From Microbacterium esteraromaticum (GTDB lineage: Bacteria; Actinomycetota; Actinomycetes; Actinomycetales; Microbacteriaceae), in the NCBI RefSeq assembly GCF_016907315.1, contig NZ_JAFBBS010000001.1, forward strand, positions 1,364,001 to 1,428,000: 64,000 bases of DNA, read 5' to 3'. A program made the translations under genes and the position numbers. Positions within the stretch are counted from its first letter, which is position 1. The number at the start of each line of letters is the position of its first letter. This document shows positions 43,043 through 61,287 of the stretch, in pieces. The notes beneath the pieces are model-generated. The model made no database searches and was not told the origin of the DNA. It saw nothing but the letters and a program-made list of their open reading frames with translations.

Positions 43043-43066
43043 CCGGGGTGCGGCAGCGCACCCCGG
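43043..43066. promoter_or_regulatory. Hairpin in the hemE-hemA divergent promoter region
   Basis: CCGGGGTGCG (43043-43052) and CGCACCCCGG (43057-43066) form a perfect 10-bp stem with a 4-base loop. It cannot be a terminator for either divergent gene. It may be an operator or a structure in the hemE leader. Confidence 0.4.
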
Positions 43067-43106
43067 GGTTAGGTCGCCCTTGGATGCCCTTCTGAAATAC
43101 CGGGCG

Positions 43107-43112
43107 TAGACT
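43107..43112 (+). promoter_or_regulatory. Leaderless-type -10 box for hemA
   Basis: TAGACT ends six bases before the GTG start of hemA at 43119; no ribosome-binding site is present. This is one of the clearest leaderless starts in the window. Confidence 0.6.
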
Positions 43113-43118
43113 TGTCGG

Positions 43119-44387: not shown

Positions 44388-44408
44388 TCCGGCCCCACCT
44401 GGGCATCC

Positions 44409-44560
44409 GGTCTCGCGCTGCGGTCTCGCGCCGCAGTCTCGCGCTGCACGCGTCGCGCTGCAGTCTCGCGCTGCACGCTTCGCGCGGCAATGTGCACTTC
44501 CCGCGGATCGGATCCGCGGATTCATCCGCGCGAAGCGCACAACTCCGCGCGAAGCGCACA
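44409..44560. repeat. Iteron-like repeat region upstream of arr
   Basis: About six imperfect 13-14 bp units of the GTCTCGCGCTGC type fill 44409-44487. A palindrome CCGCGGATC-G-GATCCGCGG (44501-44519) and two direct 17-bp copies of TCCGCGCGAAGCGCACA (44525-44541 and 44544-44560) follow. This 198-base gap between hemA and arr contains no gene that I can support. It may be a regulator-binding array or decayed repeats. Confidence 0.65.
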
Positions 44561-44585
44561 CCGAACCCGGTGCGACACTGGGTGC

Positions 44586-44999
44586 ATGGCTCTCGACGAC
44601 GGCCCCTTCTTCCACGGCACCACCGCTGCGCTGCAGCCAGGGGACCTGCTCACGGCAGGCTTCCCCTCGAACTACCGACCAGAGATCGTGATGAACCACG
44701 TGTACTTCACGGCGCTGCGCGACGGAGCGGGACTTGCGGCCGAGCTGGCCGCAGAACTGGCATCCGGCGAAGCCGAGCCGCACGTGTACCGCATCGAGCC
44801 GACGGGCGAGTTCGAGAACGACCCGAACGTCACCGACAAGAAGTTCCCCGGCAACCCGACCCGCTCGTACCGCACCGCCCGTCCGCTGCGGGTCGTGGAA
44901 GAGGTGCACGACTGGACGCGACTGTCGCCGGGTGACCTGCAGTCCTGGCGCGAGCGACTGACGACGCTGCGCGACAGCCGGGCCGAGATCATCAACTAG
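44586..44999 (+). CDS. arr: NAD(+)-rifampin ADP-ribosyltransferase
   Basis: The 137-residue protein matches the Arr family in length and motifs. These are [15 protein letters not shown] with H10, HVYFTAL with Y40, [14 protein letters not shown], and the near-invariant [14 protein letters not shown]. Arr transfers ADP-ribose from NAD to the C23 hydroxyl of rifamycins and so inactivates them. GACACT lies six bases before the ATG, a leaderless start. No integron, transposon or other resistance gene is near, so it is likely intrinsic. Recognition of the family is strong. Confidence 0.92.
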
Positions 45000-45027
45000 C
45001 GACGCGGGCCTCTGCGAAACTGGACGC

Positions 45028-45603
45028 ATGGCCCTTCACATCACCGGAGACACCGCCGCCGACGACCTGCTCACGAACAACCCGCTCGCTCTGCTGGTGG
45101 GCATGCTGCTCGACCAGCAGGTTCCCATGGAGACCGCCTTCGCCGGTCCGCTCAAGATCGAGCAGCGCACAGGAGCGGCCGACGCCGCCGCCATCGCGAG
45201 CATGGATCCGGATGCCTTTCTCGAGGCGTTCACGCAGACGCCGGCCGTTCACCGTTTCCCCGGCTCGATGGCCACGCGGGTGCAGACGCTCTGCCAGACG
45301 CTGGTCGACGAGTGGGGCGGGGATGCGTCCGCTCTGTGGACGTCGGGTGACCCCGATGGCCGTGAGGTGCTCACGCGCCTGAAGAAGCTGCCCGGGTTCG
45401 GCGAGCAGAAGGCGAAGATCTTCCTGGCTCTGCTGGGCAAGCAGTACGGCTTCACCGGCGCGGGGTGGCGCGAGGCATCCGCTCCCTACGGCGAGGAGAA
45501 CGCGTACCGCAGCGTCGCCGATATCGTCTCGCCCGAGTCGCTGACCAAGGTACGCGAGCACAAGAAGGCGATGAAGGCGGCCGCCAAGGCGGCGAAGGAG
45601 TGA
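45028..45603 (+). CDS. HhH-GPD-type base excision repair protein
   Basis: The 191-residue protein has the helix-hairpin-helix DNA-binding element [20 protein letters not shown] near residues 115-135 and an upstream helical domain starting [19 protein letters not shown]. It resembles short actinobacterial HhH-GPD family members often labelled Fe-S cluster-free glycosylases. The basic, Ala/Lys-rich tail may bind DNA. GAAACT with six bases to the ATG suggests a leaderless start. The following gene overlaps (GTGA). The lesion is unknown. Confidence 0.83.
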
Positions 45604-46064: not shown

Positions 46065-46538
46065 TCAGCCGCGGGCGACGCGCTCGGCCTCTTTCGCGGC
46101 CACGATCTTGCGCAGGCCCGAGCTCGAGAAACGGTGGTTGCGGCTGTTGAAGTACAGCTCGATGCCGGCCTCTTCGCAGTAGCTGCGGCCGGTGAAGTCG
46201 CGGTCCTCGTACTCGTCGCCGACGATGCGCACGTCGAGCTTGAACGAGCGCAGGATGTCTTCCAGGTCCTGCTCGGTCGAATACGGGACGATCTCGTCGA
46301 CGTACTCGCAGCCCCGCAGCTGGATGTAGCGCTCGACGACCGTCTGGGTCGGAGCGTTCTTCTCGGGGCGGTCGAGCGTGGGGTCCATCTGCAGACCGCA
46401 GATGAGGTAGTCGCACTGCCGCTTCGCTTCGGCGAGCATCATGATGTGCCCGGCGTGCAGCAGGTCGAAGGTGGAGAAGGTGATCCCCACCCGCGGCCCG
46501 GGGTTGTAGTCCTGGTGCTTCTTGACGGTCTCGCTCAT
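46065..46538 (-). CDS. Cytidylyltransferase family protein (TagD-like)
   Basis: The start at 46538 follows GGAAGGA; the long frame upstream is antisense to coding sense in the GH20 gene. The 157-residue protein has the nucleotidyltransferase HxGH motif in FDLLHAGHIMML and an ending NSRNHRFSSSGLRK in place of the usual RTEGISTT loop. Glycerol-3-phosphate cytidylyltransferases (TagD) have this length. The product CDP-glycerol or a CDP-alditol would serve cell-wall polymers. The gene lies apart from other wall genes. Confidence 0.83.
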   Translation of the reverse strand: MSETVKKHQDYNPGPRVGITFSTFDLLHAGHIMMLAEAKRQCDYLICGLQMDPTLDRPEKNAPTQTVVERYIQLRGCEYVDEIVPYSTEQDLEDILRSFKLDVRIVGDEYEDRDFTGRSYCEEAGIELYFNSRNHRFSSSGLRKIVAAKEAERVARG

Positions 46539-46567: not shown

Positions 46568-48040
46568 CTATGGGGACGCAACCCGGGTAACCGCCGTGCC
46601 GACGGCGTCGTCCAGCCGCGAGAACTCCTCCAGGGTGAGCCGGGAGCCGCCGTTCCAGCCGCGTTCGGCCATGGCGCGCAGCGGCCCGCGCACACCGGCG
46701 GCGACCTCGGCCGGAGTCTGTGCACCGGGGTCGTCCGCCCACATCGCGAACGAGCAGCCTCGCAGTTGGGGCGGGTATGGCTGCGTGATCTCCTGCCGCT
46801 TCCGGCCATGCGGTGACGAGTCCGGCAGCGATGGGAACAGGCCCGGATGCCAGTCTGCCTCCCAGACGCGCATCGCGGTCGGGTACCGGTAGCCGGCGTT
46901 CTCGCCGAGCACGTAGTAGAACACCGCGTCGCTGACGTTCACGACCGAGTGGCCGGCCGCCAGCGCATCCGCCAGCGGGCGCATCTGAGCGTGCCAGTTC
47001 GTCCACCATGTCAGCTCGACCCCGGGGTCGAGCCGCACGCACGACCCCCGCAGCATCCCGTCGTTCCAGACGCGCGTCGTGAACCCCCGCCGGCGCAGGT
47101 GGGCCGCCATCTCGTTGACGAATCCGGTGAGCAGGTCGAATCCGCTGGCTCCGGAGCCGTGCCGCGCGATGGCCGCCGCGGCGAGCGCGGGGTGATCGTC
47201 GATGCGGGCGAAGTCGACGAACTCGTCGCCGCCGAGATTCCACCGCGTGCTGTGGGGGAAATGCGCGACCATGTCGTCGATGAGAGCACGGGCGAAGTCG
47301 ACCGCCTCGCCGCGGGTGATGTCGAGCGCGTTCTCGCTGCGCACGAGCGCGTAGGGGTCGCTGGAGGCGGGCATCCGCAGCTCCGGATGCCGGTTCAGCA
47401 CCCACCCGAGGTGTCCGGGCATGTCGAGGGAGGGGACGACGTCGATGTGGAGCGACCGGGCGGTCTCGACGATGCGCCGCGCTTCGTGCGCGGTGATGTG
47501 GTCGGGCGAGACCACTTCGGGGAAGGCGTCGGAGGCCAGCCGGAACCCCTCGTTCTCGGAGAAGTGCCATTGCAGCACGTTCACGCCGACGTCGGCGGCG
47601 TCGTGCAGCAGAGCGATGATCCAGTCGGCCGGATAGTGCTTGCGGGCCGCGTCGAGGTGGATGCCTCGTTCGGAGACCGCGGGCGCGCTCTCGACGCGGC
47701 CGTGCGGCACGTGTTCTTGCGCGCGCAGGTTGTGCAGCAGCTGCCGGGCTGCGCGGAAGGCGCCGGCCGCCGTCCGCGCCTCGATGACGATGTCGTCGCC
47801 CACGTCGATCGCGAACGCCTCGCGCGAGGGCCGGGTGGTCGACTCGCGCAGAGCGATGCGCGACCCCTCCCCCGGCGGGATGCCGAGGTCGGCGAACTCC
47901 TGCTGCAGGCGGGCGGCCTCGTCGGCGAACTCGGGACCGTCAGCCTGCACGGTCGCCGAGGCCGGACGCCAGCATCCGCCCGCGGGCACGAAGCGGGACG
48001 GCTGCGGCAGCGCGAGCCACGCCGCAGCCGTCCCGGTCAT
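46568..48040 (-). CDS. Beta-N-acetylhexosaminidase (GH20)
   Basis: The 490-residue enzyme has an N-terminal GH20b-like region and a TIM barrel with QWHFSENEGFRL and the catalytic pair D272-E273 in WNLGGDEFVDF. The family removes terminal GlcNAc or GalNAc by substrate-assisted catalysis. No signal peptide is visible, so it should act in the cytoplasm on imported fragments. The start has Shine-Dalgarno GGGAGA. It is the distal gene of the N-glycan cluster. Confidence 0.9.
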   Translation of the reverse strand: MTGTAAAWLALPQPSRFVPAGGCWRPASATVQADGPEFADEAARLQQEFADLGIPPGEGSRIALRESTTRPSREAFAIDVGDDIVIEARTAAGAFRAARQLLHNLRAQEHVPHGRVESAPAVSERGIHLDAARKHYPADWIIALLHDAADVGVNVLQWHFSENEGFRLASDAFPEVVSPDHITAHEARRIVETARSLHIDVVPSLDMPGHLGWVLNRHPELRMPASSDPYALVRSENALDITRGEAVDFARALIDDMVAHFPHSTRWNLGGDEFVDFARIDDHPALAAAAIARHGSGASGFDLLTGFVNEMAAHLRRRGFTTRVWNDGMLRGSCVRLDPGVELTWWTNWHAQMRPLADALAAGHSVVNVSDAVFYYVLGENAGYRYPTAMRVWEADWHPGLFPSLPDSSPHGRKRQEITQPYPPQLRGCSFAMWADDPGAQTPAEVAAGVRGPLRAMAERGWNGGSRLTLEEFSRLDDAVGTAVTRVASP

Positions 48041-48065
48041 GTGTTCTCCCGTTCTGCCGCTGTGA

Positions 48066-49268
48066 TCAGCGGCAGGCCGGCACGGCGTACGGCTCGACGA
48101 GATCGAGCGTGCCGTCGGGCCCGGTCACGCTGACGGTCAGCTCGCCGTCGGCGGCCGCGCCGCGCTTCGCCTGCTGCACGACGGTGCGGCTCTCACCGCC
48201 GGCGATGCCGCTCACCGTGCGTGTTCCGACCGACGAGGCGACCGTCGCGCTGAGCTCCGCATCGTCGGCGCTGTCGATGCGCACCTTCAGCTTCACGTCA
48301 CCGCCGGCGCAGGTGGCCTGCACCTCGAGGTCGACGTCGTACCACGGGGCGCGGTAGGCGGTGGCGTGACCGGTGAGGATCTCGGTGATCTTCGACAGGT
48401 ACGCCGAATGATCGCCGGCGGTGAGGTTGTACGTCACGTAGACGCCGTAGCCCTCGTCGACGGTTCGCTGGGCCAGAGCGGTCGCGCGATCGACGCTGGT
48501 GCTGGTCAGGTCGACGGCGGCGGCGCCGAACTGGTCCTTGGTCATCCCCGGCACCTGCGGCGGGTTCCACGCACCGTAGTACGGGTTCCACGAGTAGTCG
48601 AGATTCTCGCTCGCGCCGGTGCCCTCCCAGTCGGTGAGGTCGTACGACGGACCGATGTTGTAGAGCGTGATCAGCTTGTCGGGGCCGAGGCGATCGCGCA
48701 GCTCGTCGAGCAGGTAGGCGAACGAGGTGGGGTTCGGCTGAGCGGTGCCGTTGTTGCCGTAGCCCGACCACTCGTCGTCGAAGTCGATGCCGTCGAGGCC
48801 GTAGGTCTCGACCGCATCGGCGAGCTGGTCGGCGAACGCCGCGGCGCTCTCGCGCGAGGTGAAGTTCGCGAATCCCGCGCCCTGGTGGTTGCCGAGCACC
48901 GAGAGCAGCACCTTGGTGCCTCGTTCCTGCAGCGGGCGGATCTGCGTGTCCGCCTGCTCGAGCGTCTCGGTCACGCGCTCGTTGAGGTGCAGGTACGCCT
49001 GCTGCGAGTCGACGTCGTAGTTGATGTTGGCGGCGAAGATCATCGCCATGTCGAACGCGGGCCGGTCGGTGCCTTCGAGCGTGTAGTCGGCGACGTTGGC
49101 CATGTCGTTGCTGTTGACCTCGACGTAGACGACGCGCTTCGGGTCGTCTACGTCGTGTGGCGCGGTCGGCGCGGCGGATGCCGCCGCGGGCACGGTCAGG
49201 CCTGCGATGGCCAGGCCGATGGCTGCGACGGCGGCGATGCCGGCGCGGCGGGGAGCTGAGGACTGCAT
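48066..49268 (-). CDS. Secreted endo-beta-N-acetylglucosaminidase, EndoH-type (GH18)
   Basis: The 400-residue protein has a clear signal peptide (about residues 1-33, ending AASA). The GH18 active-site motif LDGIDFDDEW carries D159, D162, D164 and E166, in the DxxDxDxE order with the FDDE form typical of EndoH and related endoglycosidases. These cleave the GlcNAc-GlcNAc bond in the core of high-mannose N-glycans. From about 310 a separate beta-rich module with two Cys may bind sugar. It is the only exported hydrolase in the cluster, so it probably releases glycans outside the cell. Confidence 0.92.
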   Translation of the reverse strand: MQSSAPRRAGIAAVAAIGLAIAGLTVPAAASAAPTAPHDVDDPKRVVYVEVNSNDMANVADYTLEGTDRPAFDMAMIFAANINYDVDSQQAYLHLNERVTETLEQADTQIRPLQERGTKVLLSVLGNHQGAGFANFTSRESAAAFADQLADAVETYGLDGIDFDDEWSGYGNNGTAQPNPTSFAYLLDELRDRLGPDKLITLYNIGPSYDLTDWEGTGASENLDYSWNPYYGAWNPPQVPGMTKDQFGAAAVDLTSTSVDRATALAQRTVDEGYGVYVTYNLTAGDHSAYLSKITEILTGHATAYRAPWYDVDLEVQATCAGGDVKLKVRIDSADDAELSATVASSVGTRTVSGIAGGESRTVVQQAKRGAAADGELTVSVTGPDGTLDLVEPYAVPACR

Positions 49269-49269
49269 G

Positions 49270-52200
49270 TCATTCCTTCCGATCTGCTTCTTCGAATTCC
49301 GGTGGGGATGCCAGATCGAACAGCTCGATCTGACGCAGGGTGAGGGCGCTCGCCGTGGCGTGCACCCTCAGCATTCGGGCGGTGACGGGTTCCGCGAACG
49401 TGAAGGGGGTGGTGCGGTCGGCGGGCAGCGGCTCGCGATGCGTGGTCGCGATGTCGCGCCACGTGCGGCCGTCGTCGCTTGCCTGCCAGACCCAGTGGCC
49501 GTCGACCATGGGGTCGCCGGCGGTGAGGGTGACGTCGGTGACGGTGCGCGGCGCATCGAAGGCCCAGCCGGCGTCGGTGACGGCGAGCGCCTCGGCACCG
49601 GCATCGTCGAACAGCGCCGCGTGGGCTGCGTCGAGCGGCTCGCCGTGAGCGGCGGTGAGATCCGGATGCCGTTCCGCCGCCTGCGCGTCGGCATCCCACA
49701 GCCCGCTTCGCGCCGCCTCACCGGGGTCGGCGGTGAAGAACAGCTCGAGCAGGCGATCGCCGCGGAGGGCGTCGACCGAGAGCGTCGCGTTCTCGAGCGG
49801 TGCGGCGTCGAGGGTCGCGGACGCCAGGTATCGGGCATCCGGATCCGGGCGATGCGACACGACCCGCAGACGCGAGCCGTCGGCTCGGCGCAGGGTGATG
49901 TCGTCGAACAGCGGGCAGCCGAGGCGCAGCTCGCCGGAGGCGAGCTCGAGCGGATACAGCCCGACGGCGGCCCACAGCCACCACATGCTCATCTCGCCGT
50001 TGTCTTCGTCGCCCGGAAAGCCCTGACCGATCATGGCGCCCGCGAACAGGCGTCCGGCGAGCTCGTTCGCGAGGGCGCCTGCCTGCCACGGGCGGTCGCC
50101 GTGCACGTGCATCCACGGGATGTGATGCGCGGGCTGGTTCGAGATCGCGCACATGCCGCTGCGCTGGGCGCGTGCCTCGCGCTGCTCATGGATCACGGTG
50201 CCGTAGCTGCCACCGAAGGCCTCGTCACCCGTCTCGGGCTCGGCGAAGAGGCGGTCGAGGTGCGCGCGCAGAGGCGCGCGGCCGCCGTGCAGAGCCGCGA
50301 GGCCTGCGCCGTCGTGCACGGCGCTGACCGACATTCCCCATGCGTTGGTCTCGACGTTGTCGCCGCCCCAGACGCGCGGGTCGAACTCGTCGGCGAATCG
50401 GCCGGAGCGGTCGCGGCCGCGGAAGAATCCGGATGCCGGGTCGAACAGCACGCGGTACGACAGCGCCCTGTTGCCGAAGTAGCGTGCGTAGGCGGCGTAG
50501 CGGGCACTGTCGGTGTTCGAATCGCAGGACGTGCCGGTATTCGGCCCGCCGGGCGACCGGGTGAGCGATTCGACACCGGCGAGCCGGCGCGCGAAGCGTG
50601 CGATGCCCGCGTCGGACATCGCGTTCTCGAGGCTCCAGCTCATGCCCTCGGGCACGTCACGGCTGACGTAGCCGGCGAACCGTCCGCGGGCGATGCCCTT
50701 GCGGCCCTTGCGGGGGTCGTCGCTCGGCTCGCAGGCGTTGCGCCAGGCCGTCTCGAACGCGGCCCGCTCGTCGAACGAGATGCCCCACCGCTCGGCGTCG
50801 GCGAAGATCTGGTCGCTGGAGGTGCCGACCATCGAGTCGACGTAGCCGGGCGCGCTCCACCGTGCCATCCATCCGCCGCGTGCCGCCTGCTGCAGCAGAC
50901 CGTCGAGCATGCGTCCGGCCCGCGGGGCGTCGAACAGCGCTAGCGCCGGCCAGGCGGTGCGATAGGTGTCCCAGTAACCGTTGTTCACGAACAGCTCGCC
51001 GTCGGCGATCGGTGCACCGGTCGCGTCTTCGCCATGTTCGGCGGCCGGCACGGTCGGATCGGCGAACTGCAGCCGAGGCTGCTCGGGCGAGCCGACGTTC
51101 TCGGCGGTCGTGTTCGGGTACAGGTGCAGGCGATACAGCGCAGAGGCGATCTGCGCCTGGGCCTCATCATCGGCGAGGCCGCGGAACGGCCGATCCTCGG
51201 GGTCGAGGTCGGGGATCTCGACGGCGCCGAGCAGCGTGTTCCACTCATCGCGCAGATCGTCGCGCAGGCTGTCGAATCCCCGTGCCGGCGGCAGCTCCTC
51301 GGCCAGCGCCCGCCGGGCCTGCTCGATCGAGAGGAACGACTGCGCGACGCGCAGCTCGAGGCCACCGGCCGCGCTCAGCACAGCGGATGCTCCGGTCTCG
51401 GTCAGCTCAGCGGCGGCTTGCCCGCCGACGACGCTGCCCGCGAAGTACGCGCGGGGCGGGTTGCCCCAATCGGCGGAGCCCTCGGGCGTCCAGCCGTCGA
51501 AGGTTCCGTCGGGGTGGATGGTGACGCGGCCCTCACCGTCGGGCGACCCCACCGCGAAGCCGACGGTGGTGCGCGGGTCGTCGGCGAGCAGCCGGAACGC
51601 GCCGCCGTGCGATGTCGCGGTCATCTCGGCCATGCCGCCGCCGACAAGCTCGGCCCGATACACGTGCGGCCGGGCGTGCTCGGTGCCGGGGGCGATGCGC
51701 AGCAGCACGTGGCCCGCGTCGTCGGCCGCGCCCACGAACGGCCGCAGCTGCAGCACGCCGCGGTCGCCGATCCAGGGGCTCGGCTGATGGGAGAACTGCA
51801 GCGCGGCGAGCGGCCGCCCGCGGGCGTCGTCGTGCACCGACCAGCGGTACGGCCACCGGGTGTCGGCCACCTGCGTGGCGGGGGTGAGGAAGCAGAAGCC
51901 GTGCGGCACGGCGGTGATCGGGATCGTGTTTCCCCGCGAGAAGCGATCGCCCGAGTGGCTGCCGCGGCGGGTGTCGACGCGATCGGCCGCCGTGAGGTCG
52001 CGGCCGGACACGGTCGGGGGCGCCAGGGCATCCGTCGTGCTGCCCAGCACGAGCTCGACGAAGCCCTCCACGATCTGCTCGCCGTCGTCGGAGCCTGCGG
52101 CGAGCGCCGGTGCGCCCAGCACCACCTCGACGCGAGCGACCCACCCCGCCCAAGGCTCGAGCGACACCGAATCGGCGTTCCACTGCTCGGGCATCGACCA

Positions 52201-52554
52201 CGCCGCCGCGAACTGCGCCTCGGCCGTCAGGCCGAAGCCGTAGCGATCGCGCACCATCGGATGCTCGCTGAGACGCTCCTCCGGCGTGCCGGCCGCGCGC
52301 TCGAACACGACGTCGACGGTCACGGCGAGCGCCGAGTGCGGGGCGTGCACGGCATCGGGACCATCCGCGTAGAACGCCCAGTGCAGCACGGCATCCGGAG
52401 CCACCTCGAACGCGCCGGGCAGCGGCACCCGCTGCACACCGGCGGCGGGGTCGAAGCGGAACGCGTGCACCTGCCCGCCGAGCACGCCGGCGAGAGGCCG
52501 GGATGACGGCGGGTCCGCAGGACCGTCCGCCCTCCTCAGCTCGGCCGAGGTCAT
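49270..52554 (-). CDS. GH92 alpha-mannosidase with C-terminal F5/8C-like domain
   Basis: The start at 52554 overlaps the permease stop (ATGA) and gives 1094 residues, longer than usual for GH92. The family marks WDTYRTAWPALALF, GTSSDQIFADAE and the calcium/catalytic GFPGDEDNGEMSMWWLWAA are present in the middle. The C-terminal 130 residues (WVWQASDDGRTWRDI to LRQIELFDL) resemble an F5/8 type C or CBM32-like module. No signal peptide is visible. GH92 enzymes remove alpha-1,2- and related mannose units by an inverting, calcium-dependent mechanism. Presence in the same operon as the importer supports intracellular use on imported oligomannose. Confidence 0.9.
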   Translation of the reverse strand: MTSAELRRADGPADPPSSRPLAGVLGGQVHAFRFDPAAGVQRVPLPGAFEVAPDAVLHWAFYADGPDAVHAPHSALAVTVDVVFERAAGTPEERLSEHPMVRDRYGFGLTAEAQFAAAWSMPEQWNADSVSLEPWAGWVARVEVVLGAPALAAGSDDGEQIVEGFVELVLGSTTDALAPPTVSGRDLTAADRVDTRRGSHSGDRFSRGNTIPITAVPHGFCFLTPATQVADTRWPYRWSVHDDARGRPLAALQFSHQPSPWIGDRGVLQLRPFVGAADDAGHVLLRIAPGTEHARPHVYRAELVGGGMAEMTATSHGGAFRLLADDPRTTVGFAVGSPDGEGRVTIHPDGTFDGWTPEGSADWGNPPRAYFAGSVVGGQAAAELTETGASAVLSAAGGLELRVAQSFLSIEQARRALAEELPPARGFDSLRDDLRDEWNTLLGAVEIPDLDPEDRPFRGLADDEAQAQIASALYRLHLYPNTTAENVGSPEQPRLQFADPTVPAAEHGEDATGAPIADGELFVNNGYWDTYRTAWPALALFDAPRAGRMLDGLLQQAARGGWMARWSAPGYVDSMVGTSSDQIFADAERWGISFDERAAFETAWRNACEPSDDPRKGRKGIARGRFAGYVSRDVPEGMSWSLENAMSDAGIARFARRLAGVESLTRSPGGPNTGTSCDSNTDSARYAAYARYFGNRALSYRVLFDPASGFFRGRDRSGRFADEFDPRVWGGDNVETNAWGMSVSAVHDGAGLAALHGGRAPLRAHLDRLFAEPETGDEAFGGSYGTVIHEQREARAQRSGMCAISNQPAHHIPWMHVHGDRPWQAGALANELAGRLFAGAMIGQGFPGDEDNGEMSMWWLWAAVGLYPLELASGELRLGCPLFDDITLRRADGSRLRVVSHRPDPDARYLASATLDAAPLENATLSVDALRGDRLLELFFTADPGEAARSGLWDADAQAAERHPDLTAAHGEPLDAAHAALFDDAGAEALAVTDAGWAFDAPRTVTDVTLTAGDPMVDGHWVWQASDDGRTWRDIATTHREPLPADRTTPFTFAEPVTARMLRVHATASALTLRQIELFDLASPPEFEEADRKE

Positions 52555-53477
52555 CCCTTGACCGCTCCCTCTTGCACTCCCTGGAAGAAGAAGCGCTGCA
52601 TGACGGAGAACAGCACGATGATCGGAATCAGGGCGACCATGGTGCCCGCCGCGATCATGCGCGGGTCGGGCGAGAAGTTGCCGTTCAGGTACGCCATGCC
52701 GACTGTCAGCGTGTACTTGCTCGGGTCGGTGAGCACCATCAGCGGCCACAGGTAGTCGTCCCACTGGCCGATGAAGGTGAAGATCGCGACGACGCTCGCC
52801 ATGCCCTTCACGTTGGGCCAGACGATGTGCCGGATGCGCTGCCAGGTGGTGGCGCCGTCGACGGTTGCGGCGTCGAGCACGTCCTGCGGGATCATGCGGC
52901 AGGCGGTGGCGATCAGCAGCACGTTCATCGCGCCGATCGCGCCCGGCAGGAAGACGCCCCACAGCGAGTTGGCGAGGCCGAGCGAGTTGATCGTGAGCAG
53001 GTTGGCCGTCACGGTCACCTCACCGGGCAGCAGCATGGTCGAGACCAGGATGCCCAGGGCGATGTACTTGCCGCGGAACTTCATGCACGCGAGGGCGTAT
53101 CCGCCGAACAGCGAGAGCACAACGTTGGTGATGACCGAGCCGACAGCGACGAGCAGCGAGTGCCAGGCGTAGGTGTACACCGGGATCAGGTCGGTGACCT
53201 TGATGTAGTTCTCGATGGTCGGGTCGGTGGGGATGAAGTTCGGCGGGAAGGTGTAGAGGTCGTCGGCCGGACCCTTGAACGAGGTCGACAGCTGCCAGAC
53301 GAACGGTCCGATGACGAGCAGCAGGACCATGGTGAGCAGCACGTACCGGCCGATCAGGCCGCCGATGGTGGGCTTGCTGAAGTCGCCCGACCCCTTCCGG
53401 CGGAACCGGCGGTCCGGGCGCAGCTGCTGGGGCTGGGTCTGCTCGGGGGACGCGGGGAGATCCTGCAGGACGCTCAT
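52551..53477 (-). CDS. ABC sugar transporter permease, MalG-like
   Basis: The start at 53477 overlaps the stop of the previous permease (ATGA), giving 308 residues with six membrane segments. The EAA-type loop reads DAATVDGATTWQRIRHIVWPNVKG, and the C-terminus FFFQGVQEGAVKG is typical. It serves the importer headed by the solute-binding gene at 55.7 kb and is followed directly by the GH92 gene, which supports uptake of mannose-containing oligosaccharides. Confidence 0.9.
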   Translation of the reverse strand: MSVLQDLPASPEQTQPQQLRPDRRFRRKGSGDFSKPTIGGLIGRYVLLTMVLLLVIGPFVWQLSTSFKGPADDLYTFPPNFIPTDPTIENYIKVTDLIPVYTYAWHSLLVAVGSVITNVVLSLFGGYALACMKFRGKYIALGILVSTMLLPGEVTVTANLLTINSLGLANSLWGVFLPGAIGAMNVLLIATACRMIPQDVLDAATVDGATTWQRIRHIVWPNVKGMASVVAIFTFIGQWDDYLWPLMVLTDPSKYTLTVGMAYLNGNFSPDPRMIAAGTMVALIPIIVLFSVMQRFFFQGVQEGAVKG

Positions 53478-54361
53478 GCCGGCACCTTCGCCTTCTTCTC
53501 GCGGTTCATCAGGGCGATCGCGACCAGCGGGATCAGCGTCAGCAGGAACAGGGCGACGCTGATCGCGGCGGCGTAGCCGAGGTTGCCGTTCAGGCCCGAG
53601 CCGACCTGGCGGATCAGCATGACGATCGACATGTTGTAGCCGCCGGGGCCTCCCGTGCCGTTCGAGAGCACGTCGAGCTCGGTGAACACGCGCATCGCCG
53701 AGACGGCGACGAGCACCGAGATCAGCAGCATCGCGCCCCGCACGCTCGGGATGGTGACGCTGACGAAGCGGCGGAAGCTGCCGGCCCCGTCGAGCATGGC
53801 CGCCTCGTGCAGATCCTTGCCGACGTTGCCGAGCGCGGCGAGGTACACGACCATGTAGTAGCCGAGGCCCTTCCATACGGTGAGCAGGATCGAGACGCCG
53901 AGCATCCACCACCGGTCGACCAGGAAGGCGACGGGCTGGTCTGTGACGCCCATCCACTGCAGGCCCTCGTTGATGATGCCGCGGCTGTCGAACAGCCACC
54001 CCCAGATGAGCGCGACGACCACGACCGAAGCGATCACCGGGAAGTAGTACGTCGTGCGGAAGAGCGCGATCCCGGGGATGTTCTTCTCGACCAGCAGGGC
54101 GAGCAGCAGCGGCAGGATCGTCAGCAGCGGCACGCAGACGACCACGTAGATGAGGCACGTGACCAGCGCGTAGCGGAACTGCTCGTCGGTCAGCAGGCGC
54201 TCGTAGTGCTCGAACCCCACCGGCTGCACGGGTTGCAGGGGCCGCGCGTCGGTGAAGCTGAGCACGACCGTGTTGAGGAACGGCCAGAGCGAGAACACCA
54301 GCACCCAGATGACGGCGGGCGCCAGGAGCAGCCAGGGTGTGAACCACCTGTGCGACTTCAT
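53474..54361 (-). CDS. ABC sugar transporter permease, MalF-like
   Basis: The 295-residue protein has six membrane segments, with the first near residues 10-32 (WLLLAPAVIWVLVFSLWPFL). The EAA loop is EAAMLDGAGSFRRFVSVTIPSVRG. It pairs with the next permease, whose start overlaps its stop. A 78-base gap separates it from the binding-protein gene. Confidence 0.9.
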   Translation of the reverse strand: MKSHRWFTPWLLLAPAVIWVLVFSLWPFLNTVVLSFTDARPLQPVQPVGFEHYERLLTDEQFRYALVTCLIYVVVCVPLLTILPLLLALLVEKNIPGIALFRTTYYFPVIASVVVVALIWGWLFDSRGIINEGLQWMGVTDQPVAFLVDRWWMLGVSILLTVWKGLGYYMVVYLAALGNVGKDLHEAAMLDGAGSFRRFVSVTIPSVRGAMLLISVLVAVSAMRVFTELDVLSNGTGGPGGYNMSIVMLIRQVGSGLNGNLGYAAAISVALFLLTLIPLVAIALMNREKKAKVPA

Positions 54362-54439
54362 GTGTGCTGCCTTTCGTCGGTGCGTATGCCGGGTGCTGGT
54401 GTTCTGCGCTTGTGTCGGTCGTCGATCAGACGCGGTGCG

Positions 54440-55738
54440 TCACTGATCGATGCGGTTGTCGTTGGCGTACTTGACGATCTTGTCGAGCGTCTCCTTGGCC
54501 GGAGCGTCGCCGCGGATCGCGAGCGCCATCTGCTGGTTGAGGTAGTCGGTCATGCCGCCGGTCCACTGGAACGGCGTCGCCTCGGCGTTCGGGATCGCGT
54601 CGAACATGACCTTCATCGCCTGCGCCTGCGCCGGGTCGAGGTCACCCTCGACGGCGCTGACGACCTCATCGGCGCCCTCTGCAGTGCCGGGTGCGAAGCC
54701 GACCGCGATCTTCACGAACTCGACCTGGTTCTTCTGGTTGGTGACGAACTCGGCGAACGCGAGAGCGGCGGCCTTGTTGTCGGAGTCGGCGGCGACGTTC
54801 ACGCCCTGCACGAACAGCGGCGGGATGCCGGGGCGCGGCGTCGCGACAGTGGTCTCGAGCAGCGACGGAGCCTTGGTGCGCAGGTCGCCGGCGAAACCAG
54901 AGCCTCCGGTCGAGTACGCGACCTTCTCCTGCAGGTACATCTCGGCGTTGCCGCCGTAGCTGCCGGTCAGCGACTCGGGCGGCATGGCACCGGCCTTGTA
55001 CGCGTCGGCGTACTGCTGCACGATCTCGACCGCCTCGGGGGTGTTGAAGATGAACGTGCCGTCGTCGTCCATGATGTCGATGTCGGCAGACACGAAGGTG
55101 TCGAGCCCGGGCATCGACGAGACGAGCTTGACCTTGCCATTCGAGTCGGCGGCGACCTTCTTGGCGAGCTCGAGCCATGCGTCGGTCGAGGTGGGCAGAT
55201 CGGCTTCCTTCACTCCGACCTCGCCGAGCTGCTTCATGTTCCACCACGACTCATCGCTGCCGAGGTACCAGGGCAGGCCGTAGGTGCCGTCGACGCCGGT
55301 GAAGTTGCTGTACGCGTCCCAGCCACCCTCGTTGTACTTGTCTTCGAGCTCGGGATCGGCCTCGTCGAGGTCGAGCAGCTTGCCGGCCTTGACCAGCGGG
55401 AACGCGATGTCGGGCGGCAGGTTGAGCACGTCGGGCAGCGTGTTCGAGTTCGCCTGGCTGAGGATCTTGTCCTGATAGCCGTCGCCGGGCTGGTCGAGCC
55501 ACTCGACCTTGACCTTGGGGTGCTCCTTCTCGAAGTCCTTGATCAGCGCCTCGAAGTACGGCGTGAACTTCTCGTTCTTCAGCGACCAGGTCTGGAACTG
55601 GATCTCGCCGCTCAGCTCGCCCTTCGTGTCGACCGCTCCGCCGTCTCCTGGTGCGGGAGCGGCGCCGCCCGTGCAGCCCGCGAGGGCCAGCGCGGTCACC
55701 GCGGCGAGTCCGGTAGCGAGAGTCGTTCTGATCCTCAT
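54440..55738 (-). CDS. Extracellular sugar-binding lipoprotein of ABC importer
   Basis: The ATG at 55738 follows Shine-Dalgarno AAGGAG and gives 432 residues. The lipoprotein signal ends at LALAGC with C22. The mature part is a family 1 solute-binding protein with aromatic residues ([20 protein letters not shown]) suited to stacking on sugar rings. It is the first gene of the minus-strand part of the N-glycan operon, 56 bases from a predicted LacI operator. The likely ligand is a high-mannose oligosaccharide released by the GH18 enzyme. Confidence 0.9.
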
Positions 55739-55793
55739 GGACGTTCTCCTTCGAAGTGGTCCGGGATGTTCGCCCCTTCGGGTGGCATCCTCA

Positions 55794-55809
55794 ACTAAAC
55801 CGTTATAGT
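55794..55809. promoter_or_regulatory. Predicted LacI operator (site 1)
   Basis: ACTAAACCGTTATAGT is a 16-bp near-palindrome with the central CG typical of LacI-family sites, with six of eight half-site positions matching. It overlaps a TATAGT -10-like box for the rightward GH5-like gene and lies in the divergent promoter region with the binding-protein gene. It matches site 2 at 13 of 16 positions. Confidence 0.7.
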
Positions 55810-55878
55810 GTCCATAGCATTGCACATGACGGGCGCCCCGTCCAGCGAGACCGTGATCCATCCAACGAAAGGACAGCG

Positions 55879-57177
55879 ATGTCCGCGCCATCCCCCGCCG
55901 CGCCCCTTCGCTTCGGCGCGAACTACACGCCGTCGACGAACTGGATGCATTCCTGGCTCTCGCTGAACCTCGACGACGTGCGTCGCGACTTCGACGGGCT
56001 CGCCCGCCTCGGGCTCGACCACGTGCGCATCTTCCCGCTCTGGACGGTGCTGCAGCCCAACCGCTCGCTGATCCGCGCCGAGGCCGTCGCCGACGTGCGC
56101 GCGGTCGTCGATGCGGGGGCCGAGTTCGGTCTCGATGTGAGCGTCGACGTCATCCAGGGACACCTGTCGAGCTTCGACTTCATCCCCTCGTGGCTCTACA
56201 CGTGGCACGACAAGAACATGTTCACGCACCCCGACGCGCTCAGCGGCCAGGTGGCGCTGGTCGAGCGTCTGGGCGAGGCGCTCGACGGGGCGAAGAACTT
56301 CCTCGGGTTCACGACGGGCAACGAGACCAACCAGTTCTCGGCATCCGTGCATCCCTCCCCGTGGCCGGTGACGACCGCCGAGGCGGCGAACTGGATCACC
56401 ACCCTCCTCGATGCGGCCGACCGCACCGCCCCCGGCCGCGAGCACGTGCACAGCGAGTACGACGCCGCCTGGTACCTCGACGGCCACGGCTTCACCCCGG
56501 CCCTCGCCGCGCGCCTGGGCGCGATGACGACCGTGCACTCGTGGATCTTCAACGGCACCGCGCAGCGCTATGGCGGCAGATCACAGGCATCCGACCGCCA
56601 TGCCGAGTACATGATCGAGGTGTCGCGCGCGTTCGCGACCGACCCTCACCGCAGCACCTGGCTGCAGGAGGTCGGCGCCCCGTCGAACTGCCTCGCCGAC
56701 GACGAGACGCCCGGGTTCCTCGAAGCGACCGTGCGCAACGCCGCCCGCACCGAGAACCTGTGGGGCGTCACCTGGTGGTGCTCGCACGACGTCAGCCGCA
56801 GCCTCGTCGACTTCCCCGAGCTGGAGTACTCGCTCGGCCTGATCGACCAGTCGGGCGCAGCCAAGCCCATCGGCCGGCGATACGCCGAGATCATCCCCGA
56901 GCTGCGCGAGCGCGGCCCCCACGTGCCTCGATCGGTGGGGATCGTGATCGAGGTCGACGCCGACGACACTCCCGTCAGCCGCGGAGCTCTCGCACCAGGC
57001 GGACCGATCTTCGCTGCGTGGGTGCAGGCGTGCGAGAGCGGGGTGGATGCCGCGTTCGTCACGTCGAGGACCGCGGCGGATGCTGCAGCACTGGCCTCAC
57101 GCGGGATCACGGAGCTCGTGCATCCCGACCTGTCGAAGCCCGTCGCAACCTACTCGTCGAACAACACCGTCGTCTGA
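55879..57177 (+). CDS. GH5-like glycoside hydrolase, candidate core beta-mannosidase
   Basis: The ATG at 55879 has Shine-Dalgarno AAAGGA and gives 432 residues; no signal peptide is present. Clan GH-A marks are the acid/base N148-E149 in [11 protein letters not shown] and the nucleophile E264 in [11 protein letters not shown]. The overall length and sequence recall GH5_18-type enzymes of bifidobacteria that cleave Man-beta-1,4-GlcNAc left from N-glycan cores. This would be the product after alpha-mannosidase action and would complete the pathway with GH20. The subfamily is inferred from memory and context, not from a search. Confidence 0.78.
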
Positions 57178-57193
57178 CGGGCGGGGCGCGCGC

Positions 57194-58219
57194 TCAACCC
57201 TGAGGGCGACCGGTGCTCTCGCGCACCGTCAGCGTCGGCACGGGGCCCATGCGGTCGGGCAGCACCTCGGAGGCGTCGAGCTGCTCGAGCAGGAAGTCGG
57301 CCGCCCGCTCCCCCAGCAGGAACGTGTCTCGCGTGAGACAGGTTATCGAGGGATGCACGAGGCCGGTGACGATCGAGTCGTCGAACGACGCCAGCGACAG
57401 CTCGCCGGGCACCCGCACGCCCATCTCCTGCGTGACCCGGAGGCCTGCGATCGCCATCATGTCGTTGTCGAACACGACGGCGGTGGGCAGCTCGGCCCGG
57501 CTCAGCAGCGAGCGCATGACGGTCGAGACCTGCGAAGGCGAGTAGTCGGTCTCGACGACTTCGCCGCGCACTCCGCGCGCGGACATCGCGTCGAGCACTC
57601 CCCGGCGCAGGCGCACGTGCTCGTGCGCGGCCGCACCGGAGATGTAGACAATGTGCCGATGGCCGAGGCGGGCGAGATACCCGAACACCGTCTCGGCGGC
57701 AGCCGAGTCGTCGAGCCAGAGCGTCGCGTGCTCGCCGTCGGGCGACGGCTGTCCGCCGATGGTGATCGACGGCAGACCCAGCGTGCGCAGCAGTTCGGGG
57801 CGCGGGTCGTCGACGCGCGGATCGAGCACGAGCACGCCGTCGACCTGATTCGCCCTCCGCCACCGGCGGTACGTGTCGAGCTCCTCCTCGAGCGTGGGTA
57901 CGACGACCAGCTGCATACCGATGCGCCGGGCCGCGAGCGACGACTGCACGCCGGCGATGAGATCTGTGAAGAACGCCTCTGTGCCGAGGGTGCGCGCCGG
58001 ACGGTTGACGGCGAAGCCGATGACCCCGGCGTGTGCACCGACGAGGGCGCGCGCAGTCGAGCTCGGGCGCCAGTCGTGCTGGTCGGCGATCGCGAGGATG
58101 CGCTGCCTGGTCTCTTCGCTCACACCCGGACGCCCGTTGAGGGCGAAGGACACCGCGCCAGGAGACACACCCGCCTGCCTCGCGATGTCCGCGATGGTGA
58201 CACGCTTGGACCGTGGCAT
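57194..58219 (-). CDS. LacI family transcriptional regulator
   Basis: The 341-residue protein has the LacI HTH (VTIADIARQAGVSPGAVSFALNGRPGVSEETRQRI) at residues 7-41. A periplasmic-binding-protein-like ligand domain ends GERAADFLLEQLD. TACGGT is placed six bases upstream of the ATG, a leaderless start. It lies between the GH5-like and GH38 genes, and two matching palindromes flank it at 55794 and 58231, so it likely represses the glycan genes and its own synthesis. The inducer may be a mannose-containing sugar. Confidence 0.92.
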   Translation of the reverse strand: MPRSKRVTIADIARQAGVSPGAVSFALNGRPGVSEETRQRILAIADQHDWRPSSTARALVGAHAGVIGFAVNRPARTLGTEAFFTDLIAGVQSSLAARRIGMQLVVVPTLEEELDTYRRWRRANQVDGVLVLDPRVDDPRPELLRTLGLPSITIGGQPSPDGEHATLWLDDSAAAETVFGYLARLGHRHIVYISGAAAHEHVRLRRGVLDAMSARGVRGEVVETDYSPSQVSTVMRSLLSRAELPTAVVFDNDMMAIAGLRVTQEMGVRVPGELSLASFDDSIVTGLVHPSITCLTRDTFLLGERAADFLLEQLDASEVLPDRMGPVPTLTVRESTGRPQG

Positions 58220-58230
58220 AGACTCACCGT

Positions 58231-58246
58231 ACTAGATCGTTTTAGT
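58231..58246. promoter_or_regulatory. Predicted LacI operator (site 2)
   Basis: ACTAGATCGTTTTAGT is a 16-bp near-palindrome with central CG, 11 bases upstream of the LacI start and 65 upstream of the GH38 start. It overlaps the region where both promoters should lie. Together with site 1 it gives the consensus ACTANANCGNTNTAGT. Confidence 0.72.
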
Positions 58247-58311
58247 TGCGATCGTCCCCTGGGCCCCCACGGCCGATCGCCCTCATTCTCCCACCGCGAA
58301 GGAGCGCCCCC

Positions 58312-61287
58312 GTGCACGAAGAGACCTCGCTCACCGTCGGACGCGTGAACCGCGTGCTGCTCGAACGAGTCCGGCCGGCGGTGCACTCCGCTCGCGTGCC
58401 GCTCGAGATCACCGCGCATCAGCTGCCCGGCGAGCCGATCAGCCCGGCCGAGGGCCTCGCCCTCGACTTCCAGCCCTTCGAAGCCGGCACCATGTGGGGC
58501 CCGGCCTGGGGCACCACCTGGTTCCGCCTGCGCGGACAGGTGCCCGCCGAATGGGCCGGCCGCAAGGTCGAGGCGCTGATCGACCTCGGCTTCGACATCA
58601 ACATGACCGGCTTCCAGTGCGAGGCGCTCGCGTACCGCCCCGACGGCACCCCGATCAAGAGCATCAACCCGCGCAATCAGTGGCTTCCGGTCGACGTCGC
58701 ATCCGGCGGAGCCGTCGAGTTCTATCTCGAAGGCGCCTCGAACCCCGTGCTGCTCGACTACCACCCCTTCCTCCCCACGCAGGAGGGCGACATCCGCACC
58801 TCCTCACCCGAGCCGCTGTACCGCGTGCGCCACATGGATCTCGCCGTCTTCGAGCCCGAGGTCTTCGATCTCTCCCTGGACCTCGAGGTGCTCATCGAGC
58901 TGCAGGCCGAGCTGCCCGAGACCAGCCCGCGTCGCATGCGCATCCTGCAGGCGCTCGACAACGCCCTCGATGCCCTCGACCTGCAGCGCATCGTCGAGAC
59001 CGCACCCGACGCCCGTGCCCAGCTGGTCGACGTGCTCGCCTCGCCGGCCGACGCCAGTGCGCACCGCATCGCGGCCATCGGCCACGCGCACATCGACTCG
59101 GCGTGGCTGTGGCCGGTGCGCGAAACGATCCGCAAGGTCGCCCGCACCACCTCATCGATGACCACCCTGATCGACGAGCAGCCCGACTTCCTCTACGGCA
59201 TGTCGAGCGCGCAGCAGTACGCCTGGATCAAGGAGCACCGCCCCGAGGTCTTCGAACGAGTGCGCGATGCCGTCAAGGCAGGCCGGTTCCTGCCGCTCGG
59301 CGGCATGTGGGTCGAGTCCGACACGGTCATGCCCACCGGCGAGTCGCTCGTGCGTCAGTTCTCGCACGGCCAGCGCTTCTTCGAGCGGGAGTTCGGCATC
59401 CGGTCGAAGGGCGTCTGGCTGCCTGACAGCTTCGGCTACTCCCCTGCGCTGCCGCAGCTGATGCGCCGTGCCGGATTCGAGTGGTTCTTCACGCAGAAGA
59501 TCTCGTGGAACCAGCGCAACGTCTTCCCCCACCACAGCTTCCTGTGGGAGGGCATCGACGGCTCGCGCATGTTCACGCACTTCCCGCCGATGGACACCTA
59601 CAACTCGCAGCTGAGCGGCATGGAGGTCGCGAAGGCCTCCCGCCAGTTCAAGGAGAACCGCGTCGCGACCATGTCGATCGCGCCCGTCGGCTGGGGCGAC
59701 GGCGGTGGCGGCACGACCCGCGAGATGACGGGCAAGGCCCAGCGCATGGCGTCGCTCGAGGGTGCAGCGCAGGTCGAGTGGAAGCATCCGGATGCCTTCT
59801 TCGACGACGCCAAGGCCGAGTTGACCGACCCGGCCGTCTGGGTCGGCGAGCTGTACCTCGAGCTGCACCGCGGCACGCTCACCAGCCAGCACGCGACCAA
59901 GGCGCTGCACCGCTGGGCCGAGCAGGCGCTGATCGAGGCCGAGCTGTGGGCGGCGACGGCCGCCGTGCAGCTCGGCGCCGAGTACCCGCACGACGAGCTC
60001 GACCGGCTGTGGCAGCTCGTGCTGCTGCACGAGTTCCACGACATCCTGCCCGGAACGTCGATCGCGTGGGTGCATCGCGAGGCGGTCGAGGTGCTGTCGG
60101 GTGTGCTGGCGGATGCCCGCGACCTGGCATCCATGGCACGCGCGGCACTTGCCGGCGACGGAGAGCGCGAGCTGGTGTTCGACCGGATGACAGCGGGCGC
60201 ATCGGCCGCTGTCGCGGCGGGCGCATCGGCGACCCTCTCGGACGGCGAGAACGGCTCGTTCGTGCTGTCGAACGACCTCGTCACCGTCACCGTGTCGGCC
60301 GAGGGACTGATCACCTCGGCCGTCGACGAGGCCACCGGCCGCGAGACGATTCCGGCGGGCAAGCCGGCGAACCTGTTCCAGCTGCACCAGGACTTCCCGA
60401 ACATGTGGGATGCGTGGGACATCGACCGGTACTACAAGAACCGCGTCGACGATCTCACGGCGGTCTCGTCGATCGAGGCGTCGATGGTCGACGGCGCCGC
60501 CGTCGTGGTCGTGAAGCGCCAGTTCTCGGCATCCGCTCTCACGCAGACGATCAGCCTGTGCCCGGGCTCCCGCACGGTCTCGCTGCGCAACGACATCGAC
60601 TGGCATGAGACCGAGAAGCTGCTCAAGCTCGCCTTCCCGCTCGACATCTTCGCGCGGGAGACGCTGGCCGAGACGCAGTTCGGCTTCCAGCGACGCGTCA
60701 CGCACGTGAACACGAGCTGGGAGGCGGCGAAGTTCGAGACCTCGATGCACCGCTTCGTGCTCGCGCAGGAAGACGACGGCTTCGGCGCCGCGCTCATCAA
60801 CGACTCGATCTACGGTTACGACACCTCGCGTGATGTCGACGGCGACGACGTCACGACGACCGTGCGCCTGTCGCTGCTGCGCGCCCCCCGGTTCCCCGAT
60901 CCCGACACCGACCACGGCCGTCACCAGATCGAGGTCGGACTGGTGGTCGGAGCGGATGCCGAGATCGCGACGGCAGAGGGCATCCGTCTCAACGCTCCGG
61001 CGACCGTCGTGCGCGGCGGTCAGGACGTGCAGCCGCTCGTCTCCGTCAGCGGCAAGGGCATCGTGCTCTCGTCGGTGAAGCTGGCCGACGACCGCTCGGG
61101 CGACGTGATCGTGCGCGTCTACGAGGCGCTGGGCCGTCGCACGACCGGGTCGCTGACCGTCGGGTTCCCGCACTCCGAGATCCGCGAGGTCTCGCTGATC
61201 GAAGACGAGCTCGACGACGCCCGCACGGGTGGCGAACTCGTGCTCAAGCCCTTCGAGGTGCGCACCCTGCGCATCGCGCGCTCCTGA
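58312..61287 (+). CDS. Alpha-mannosidase (GH38)
   Basis: The GTG at 58312 has Shine-Dalgarno GAAGGAG and gives 991 residues. The GH38 zinc ligands are in GHAHIDSAWLW (H260, D262) and HEFHDILPGTS, and the nucleophile D372 is in VWLPDSFGYSPALPQ. The C-terminal beta domains are full length. There is no signal peptide, so it works inside the cell on imported oligomannose, cleaving alpha-1,2, 1,3 or 1,6 links. It is transcribed divergently from the LacI gene under operator site 2. Confidence 0.94.
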   Translation: MHEETSLTVGRVNRVLLERVRPAVHSARVPLEITAHQLPGEPISPAEGLALDFQPFEAGTMWGPAWGTTWFRLRGQVPAEWAGRKVEALIDLGFDINMTGFQCEALAYRPDGTPIKSINPRNQWLPVDVASGGAVEFYLEGASNPVLLDYHPFLPTQEGDIRTSSPEPLYRVRHMDLAVFEPEVFDLSLDLEVLIELQAELPETSPRRMRILQALDNALDALDLQRIVETAPDARAQLVDVLASPADASAHRIAAIGHAHIDSAWLWPVRETIRKVARTTSSMTTLIDEQPDFLYGMSSAQQYAWIKEHRPEVFERVRDAVKAGRFLPLGGMWVESDTVMPTGESLVRQFSHGQRFFEREFGIRSKGVWLPDSFGYSPALPQLMRRAGFEWFFTQKISWNQRNVFPHHSFLWEGIDGSRMFTHFPPMDTYNSQLSGMEVAKASRQFKENRVATMSIAPVGWGDGGGGTTREMTGKAQRMASLEGAAQVEWKHPDAFFDDAKAELTDPAVWVGELYLELHRGTLTSQHATKALHRWAEQALIEAELWAATAAVQLGAEYPHDELDRLWQLVLLHEFHDILPGTSIAWVHREAVEVLSGVLADARDLASMARAALAGDGERELVFDRMTAGASAAVAAGASATLSDGENGSFVLSNDLVTVTVSAEGLITSAVDEATGRETIPAGKPANLFQLHQDFPNMWDAWDIDRYYKNRVDDLTAVSSIEASMVDGAAVVVVKRQFSASALTQTISLCPGSRTVSLRNDIDWHETEKLLKLAFPLDIFARETLAETQFGFQRRVTHVNTSWEAAKFETSMHRFVLAQEDDGFGAALINDSIYGYDTSRDVDGDDVTTTVRLSLLRAPRFPDPDTDHGRHQIEVGLVVGADAEIATAEGIRLNAPATVVRGGQDVQPLVSVSGKGIVLSSVKLADDRSGDVIVRVYEALGRRTTGSLTVGFPHSEIREVSLIEDELDDARTGGELVLKPFEVRTLRIARS

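Follow-up and report, generated by a model that had tools for sequence, protein, structure and literature searches.

Four described systems for the use of N-glycans come closest to the locus analysed here. In the actinobacterium Cutibacterium acnes 266, locus 1 encodes GH38, GH5_18, GH20 and GH18 enzymes together with a solute-binding protein (SBP), permeases and a regulator; trimming takes place in the cytoplasm, and the GH5_18 enzyme was proven to act on Man-GlcNAc (PMC6160142). In Bifidobacterium longum (work of Cordeiro et al., as described by the review PMC10154615), an endoglycosidase acts outside the cell without prior trimming, its product is imported, and GH38 enzymes and a GH5_18 beta-mannosidase act inside; three GH38 genes and a GH125 gene share one operon. 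The system of Streptococcus pneumoniae consists of EndoD, SpGH92, the NgtS-P1-P2 importer, GH38, GH125 and GH20C (PMC5215778). There, a GH85 is found in place of a GH18, GH92 acts before the endoglycosidase, the genes lie in several loci (PMC5215778), and, according to PMC6160142, the system has no candidate for cleavage of the Man-GlcNAc bond. Finally, the high-mannose PUL of Bacteroides thetaiotaomicron has a GH18 of the EndoH/BT3987 group and a PUL-type import of the Bacteroidetes (PMC11180146, PMC10154615).

The stretch analysed here, hereafter the window, comprises 64,000 nucleotides of the genome of Microbacterium esteraromaticum, a single contig of 3.24 Mb. An earlier note on this DNA had described a high-mannose N-glycan utilisation locus, and sequence searches found all the genes it had named, at positions 46568-61287. 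The locus resembles C. acnes locus 1, but its GH18 is exported, whereas the C. acnes enzyme, nearest to EndoT, is given no secretion signal, and it has a GH92, a family absent from the text on C. acnes (PMC6160142). Its regulator is a LacI, whose operators could be mapped. Where B. longum has three GH38 and a GH125, the window has one GH38 and a GH92 (PMC10154615). With S. pneumoniae it shares an endoglycosidase, an importer without its own ATPase, exo-mannosidases and a GH20 (PMC5215778), and with B. thetaiotaomicron the type of GH18, although import is entrusted to an ABC importer (PMC11180146, PMC10154615). Such gene sets are already known, and the new element is comparative, namely a proposed modular exchange between two versions of the locus, A and B. 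Judged from its sequence, the window locus is very probably a regulon for the utilisation of high-mannose and hybrid N-glycans.

On the minus strand, an operon runs in the order SBP, permease 1, permease 2, GH92, GH18, GH20, with 4-base overlaps between the two permeases and between permease 2 and GH92, a gap of 1 base between GH92 and GH18, and one of 25 bases between GH18 and GH20. GH5_18 diverges from this operon, and downstream of it the LacI gene, on the minus strand, diverges from GH38. Among the best 80 of 579 loci, that of M. arabinogalactanolyticum (L066) has the gene order of the window and the same two flanking genes. One flank (46065-46520, minus strand) is a cytidylyltransferase-like gene (CTP_transf_like, 47.5 bits), relatives of which lie near GH5_18 in 10 of the 80 named loci (again the best 80 of 579), with 7 of the 10 placed between GH5_18 and LacI. 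Farther out, at 41961-45029 (minus strand), is a frame of 1022 aa with a uroporphyrinogen decarboxylase domain confined to its last third; it is probably an overlong open reading frame.

Enzymes, importer and proposed pathway

In the proposed pathway, the exported GH18 would act outside the cell, and the SBP and the two permeases would import its product whole, with energy from a shared ATPase whose gene lies elsewhere. In the cytoplasm, GH92 would take off alpha-1,2-mannose and GH38 alpha-1,3- and alpha-1,6-mannose, GH20 would trim antennary GlcNAc from hybrid glycans, and GH5_18 would cleave the leftover Man-beta-1,4-GlcNAc; the freed sugars would enter Man-6-P and GlcNAc-6-P metabolism. A single LacI repressor would hold both arms via two operators, to be released by an imported sugar. 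We infer all substrates in this scheme, as well as the SBP ligand, the ATPase partner, the repression and the inducer. The enzyme families and the topology given by the earlier note, endoglycosidase outside and exo-enzymes inside, are supported by the sequence, the topology having been judged by eye: only the GH18 (signal peptide) and the SBP (lipobox) appeared to exit the cytoplasm, GH92, GH38, GH5 and GH20 having no signal peptide.

The GH18 (48066-49268, minus strand) scored 379 bits, as a whole-domain match, against the NCBIfam EndoH equivalog NF045482 (cut-off 300). Its domain aligned end to end with EndoH (1edt, 313 bits), and its motif DGIDFDDE pairs with DGVDFDDE of EndoH (the DGxDxDxE catalytic motif). 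To the eye, a signal peptide was present, and a hydrophobic leader was seen on the GH18 of 18 out of 18 relatives. EndoH, EndoF1, BT3987 and others, grouped by their glycan-binding loops, act on high-mannose and hybrid glycans; another loop group holds EndoS2, EndoE and EndoBI, EndoS2 cleaving all three glycan classes and EndoS complex glycans only (PMC8374693). A role in chitin use was rejected for the window GH18, because it belongs to the EndoH equivalog, its nearest solved structure is EndoH, and it is the only PF00704 match in the whole genome, a count that would miss any EndoS-type GH18 protein elsewhere in the genome, since such proteins match PF23916 and not PF00704. Past the EndoH domain, about 95 further residues follow at the C-terminus (48066-48360, minus strand); matches extended to query residue 398 or 399 in 8 of 53 other EndoH-bearing genomes and were shorter in the rest.

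The GH92 (49270-52554, minus strand; PF07971, 306 bits) is the only one in the whole genome. Its start was placed at ATG 52554, which overlaps the stop of permease 2, and GTG 52962 was rejected. Of the relatives, 15 of 19, that is all those whose start was visible, also began without a signal peptide (by eye). GH92 is part of the high-mannose PUL of B. thetaiotaomicron as well, and that PUL is not known to have an ABC importer or a GH5_18. In NnGH92, Glu944 and Asp1058 are catalytic, and Trp477, His996 and Glu997 line the +1 site (PMC10167667); upon alignment to the alpha-1,2-mannosidase 7nsn, W477, H996, E997, E944 and D1058 were all matched in the window GH92. A GH92 from Microbacterium (strain M-90) is mentioned in PMC10167667, and the family also occurs in Subtercola, which belongs to the same bacterial family as Microbacterium (PMC10303725).

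That the locus feeds mainly on alpha-mannan and mannoprotein oligosaccharides of fungi or yeasts, with N-glycan cores as a side substrate, is unlikely. Enzymes of the NnGH92 kind do act on yeast mannan (PMC10167667), and the window GH92 contains a weak F5/8-type (CBM32-like) stretch, below cut-off, but the EndoH-type GH18 and the GH5_18 both act at the GlcNAc end of N-glycans, the GH92 lacks a signal peptide here and in the relatives in view (by eye), and no endo-mannanase of family GH76 or GH99 was found among the identified genes of the locus.

The GH38 (58312-61287, plus strand) is a predicted cytoplasmic, Ams1-like alpha-mannosidase. It carries PF01074 (304 bits), PF07748 and PF09261, so that the N-terminal, middle and C-terminal domains are all covered, and it matched the alpha-mannosidase 7ufr, an enzyme of B. 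longum, with 825 bits over residues 10-965 of 991, and Ams1 with 464-520 bits. The start was set at GTG 58312; TTG 58246 was rejected because it overlaps operator 2.

The GH5-like protein (55879-57177, plus strand, start at 55879) gave no match in a Pfam scan. Its solved relatives were GH5_18 enzymes, including 7lr7, BlMan5B and 6gvb of C. acnes; those named as GH5_18 scored from 479 bits downward, and the best relative (9y4v, up to 714 bits) is named just "glycosyl hydrolase". Two GH5_18 glutamates, E148 and E263 in the numbering of the aligned sequence, were unchanged in 13 of 13 sequences. In the C. acnes GH5_18, which splits Man-GlcNAc, the acid/base and the nucleophile are Glu140 and Glu259 (PMC6160142). 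The protein is thus predicted to be an exo-beta-1,4-mannosidase acting on Man-beta-1,4-GlcNAc. Taken together, the catalytic residues fit a pathway for high-mannose (and hybrid) N-glycans, and the high-mannose reading proposed in the earlier note is supported by the sequence.

The step assigned to GH20 (46568-48040, minus strand; PF00728, 117 bits), the last gene of the operon, calls for refinement: GH20 is not needed for the high-mannose products of EndoH. Hybrid glycans are also cut by EndoH (PMC8374693), and as their alpha-1,3 arm is of the complex kind, they would give the GH20 of the window a substrate. Its presence would thus fit either hybrid glycans or a carry-over from the locus in its other version.

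The closest solved structures of this GH20 were three lacto-N-biosidases (135-158 bits, the next match being at 76 bits), as expected of an enzyme acting on Gal-beta-1,3-GlcNAc antennae, such as those of plant complex glycans. Lacto-N-biosidases typically have an open -2 site, without the pocket Arg. In the window GH20, R133, H210, D272 and E273, presumably the exo-pocket with the catalytic Asp-Glu pair and the pocket Arg, were kept in 18 of 18 aligned sequences, GGDE included. In addition, the segments LDAAR and HFSENEGFRL align with an exo-hexosaminidase (3rcn), and the three lacto-N-biosidases diverge from them, which weakens a plain lacto-N-biosidase identity; with R133 invariant, such an activity appears improbable.

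A second alternative, possible but rather doubtful, is that GH20 splits the chitobiose core (GlcNAc2) and not antennary GlcNAc, in which case the locus would also take glycans with an intact core. Chitobiose splitting was proposed for the C. acnes GH20 (PMC6160142), and the presence of a GH20 in just 5 of 15 long loci of clade A (see below) suggests that high-mannose EndoH products do not need it. Against this role, EndoH products bear one GlcNAc, and GH20 tracks clade B, in which 10 of 14 long loci have an EndoS-type endoglycosidase, which we infer to leave one GlcNAc. Removal of antennary GlcNAc from hybrid glycans is the role retained in the pathway. In one clade-A locus (L080:12453-13880), the GH20 is oddly placed between LacI and GH38, directly behind the operator on the LacI side.

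The SBP (54440-55738, minus strand; PF01547, 92.5 bits) has the lipobox LALAGC and is accompanied by two BPD_transp_1 permeases, permease 1 (53474-54361, minus strand; PF00528, 41.2 bits) and permease 2 (52551-53477, minus strand; PF00528, 48.6 bits). No ATPase gene was found in the 46568-61287 locus; the genome has one MalK-type ATPase with an OB domain, outside the locus, at a distance of about 0.56 Mb. NgtS of S. pneumoniae, the one solved Man5GlcNAc-binding SBP found for comparison, is represented by structures 5SUO, 5SWA and 5SWB (PMC5215778). These were absent from the 18 solved-structure hits of the window SBP, which is thus not recognisably NgtS by sequence. As for the fate of the sugars, manA is present in the genome, above cut-off; a nagA-like gene (224.3 bits) fell just under its cut-off of 225.65 and a nagB-like gene (232.5 bits) just under that of 236.9, and these two lie about 7 kb from each other.

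Operators of the LacI regulator

The LacI-family regulator (57194-58219, minus strand) carries PF00356 and PF13377, and the palindromic operator pattern ACTANANCGNTNTAGT has exactly two perfect matches in the 3.24 Mb genome. Operator 1, ACTAAACCGTTATAGT (55794-55809), lies between the divergent SBP and GH5_18 genes, and operator 2, ACTAGATCGTTTTAGT (58231-58246), between the divergent LacI and GH38 genes. The reversed pattern, used as a control, had no match genome-wide, and none of 100 shuffles of the window contained two matches with up to 1 mismatch.

The exact pattern recurred in 11 of 20 regions of the family. Over 35 importer-bearing loci of clades A and B, the window included and L046 left out, a search allowing up to 1 mismatch gave 72 operator-like sites, and 71 of them lay close to where a match to a locus gene begins, at most 320 bases upstream of it or 30 bases within it; the reversed pattern gave no match in the 660 kb of these loci. 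The SBP had a site in front of it in 16 of the 18 loci of clade A and in all 17 of clade B. Loci with rearranged genes are less uniform. Sixteen clade-A loci have a GH18; in 11 of them this gene is on the strand opposite GH92, apart from the importer operon, and a site precedes it in 7 of these 11. Of 7 loci in which GH38 lies behind the import operon, L057 and L065 have a separate site for it; in the other loci (L058, L064, L067, L073 and L088) it has none, and may be read from the import operon.

The sites support the existence of one regulon, and repression by LacI is the predicted mode of action. Control of the whole locus by one LacI, claimed earlier, is thus supported by operators shared by both arms and kept with the genes. 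The question of whether the two arms are regulated together is also largely answered, with 71 of 72 sites at starts of locus genes and none for the reversed pattern.

Occurrence in the genus and beyond

The earlier note had considered such a locus less expected in an actinobacterium, and this view was not supported. EndoH relatives were present in 54 of 366 genomes of a genus sample (taken as Microbacterium), a GH38 match was found near GH5_18 in 37 of 41 loci of Streptomyces and other genera (L092-L132, among the best 80 of 579), and the C. acnes locus is published (PMC6160142). In a sample of 398 genomes of the family, GH5_18 relatives were detected in 23, the genome of the window included, and GH38 was within the same 20 kb in 13 of 20 fetched GH5_18 regions, a set that omits G203, G257 and the second copies in G031 and G214. 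The nearest named GH5_18 relatives, among the best 80 of 579 loci, were from Microbacterium species.

In the genus sample, an SBP of at least 60% identity was present in 57 of 366 genomes, of which 48 also had EndoH; among the other 309 genomes, EndoH was found in 6 (Fisher test, p = 5e-44, not corrected for kinship). Five of 33 genomes with an SBP of 40-60% identity had EndoH, and the one inspected (G164) was of a third kind, C; G559 had EndoH without an SBP match. EndoH was missing from 9 of the 57 close-SBP genomes, and in two of these 9 the SBP match was cut short. Partial close SBPs without EndoH were seen at G618:C1:3099913-3100761 and G506:C1:2381462-2382238, and are possible cassette remnants. 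Given these EndoH and SBP frequencies and the identical gene order in L066, the locus is ordinary for the genus. In the 41 named loci L092-L132 (among the best 80 of 579), no EndoH or GH92 match was found within the fetched stretch.

Two importer clades and a proposed cassette exchange

The SBP tree separated clade A, which includes the window (98, starred branch), from clade B (100, starred branch). Both share a core made of GH5_18, LacI, GH38 and the operators. Gene content was compared in 29 long loci, a set that excludes L046 and the short contigs L056, L068, L074, L077, L084, L088 and L090, six of which are A or B rows. All 15 long clade-A loci had an EndoH-type GH18 and a GH92, 5 had a GH20 and none an EndoS-type GH18. 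Of the 14 long clade-B loci, none had EndoH or GH92, 10 had an EndoS-type GH18, 13 a GH20 and 6 a sulfatase. When short contigs and L046 were included, clade-A loci had GH18 in 16 of 19, GH92 in 17 of 19 and GH20 in 5 of 19 cases; the 20 kb of L046 itself hold a clade-A SBP but no EndoH or GH92. The search for EndoS-type GH18 covered the fetched loci, three of them by HMM scan and the others by tblastn matches, with L046 tallied among "other" in the latter. The three scanned clade-B endoglycosidases matched PF23916 (EndoS barrel) with 287-293 bits and the EndoBI model with 185-186 bits, below its cut-off of 900. Four long clade-B loci (L033, L053, L067 and L072) had no EndoS-type GH18 within the stretch in view. 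A fucosidase match was found in 5 of all 17 clade-B loci. The clade C loci L043-L045, as well as L042, are outside the A and B counts, and L055, L059, L068-L071 and L087, which are of the Microbacterium group and have GH5_18 but no importer match, carry no A or B label.

A simple mutual exclusion of EndoH and GH20 was dropped once clade-B loci were found to hold an EndoS-type GH18. Combined with the loop groups of GH18 enzymes (PMC8374693), the gene content of the clades suggests that clade A serves high-mannose and clade B complex N-glycans. Some loci have peculiarities: in L053 (12928-15938), GH38 is in two reading frames and looks broken or affected by a sequencing error; L059 (Microbacterium sp. 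69-10 MAG) retains the core genes, with GH38 split in two, and part of a GH20, lacks an importer, and may be in decay or misassembled; in L067 (11795-15021), a fucose-isomerase-like gene and an FGGY kinase adjoin the clade-B locus.

On quick trees, from which L087 was excluded, and with L046 outside the label counts, the A/B label needed a single change for the SBP, 6 changes for GH5 and 8 for GH38, the groups having been named after the SBP clades were seen. This difference between the importer tree and the core trees suggests an exchange of cassettes. That clades A and B are vertically inherited lineages is a reading we find very unlikely: it agrees with the large set of clade-A loci around M. 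oxydans, which stays together on the SBP tree as on the GH5 tree, but not with the excess of label changes on the core trees, nor with the GH5 tree, where clade A as a single clade was rejected (AU test, p = 2.4e-60). Moreover, the sister of the window GH5 (90%) is that of L032, a clade-B locus of the same genus, which sits at the chromosomal site of the window, beside GlyRS and the cytidylyltransferase gene. Independent A/B pairs numbered 3 on starred branches and 6 on all branches; EndoH and GH92 agreed with the clade in all 3 pairs of starred branches, too few for significance. The clade-B loci L058 and L073 of Arthrobacter (Micrococcaceae) fall within Microbacterium on the SBP tree as well as on the GH5 tree, which suggests transfer of the whole locus between families.

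We therefore lean, with some reserve, towards a locus whose release-and-import half is an exchangeable cassette on a fixed core, swaps switching it between high-mannose and complex N-glycans, and in which the window results from a recent exchange of A on B. The scope of this cassette reading is Microbacterium plus the two Arthrobacter loci nested among them. Cassette A would comprise the EndoH-type GH18, GH92 and importer A, and cassette B an EndoS/EndoBI-type GH18, GH20 and importer B, with sulfatases and a fucosidase in some loci; the fixed core would be GH5_18, LacI, GH38 and the operator. One repressor would retain control across swaps because each unit that arrives brings its operator along or gains one. 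The exchange in the window would have kept a GH20, adding hybrid glycans to the diet; the GH20 tree, with poor support, did not separate arrival with cassette A from retention of the gene of a B ancestor. In open-access literature, searched in several cases through the top of longer lists and judged from entries and the opening lines of abstracts, no report of an N-glycan locus or of cassette exchange in Microbacterium was found.

This pathway has been investigated chiefly in pathogens and in bacteria of the gut, and the locus adds a genetically compact case from a genus that belongs to neither group of models. If confirmed, the alternation of A and B would be a natural experiment in which a locus changes its substrate class without rewiring of its regulator. 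Matched pairs of transporter and endoglycosidase for the two main classes of N-glycans are a further offering.
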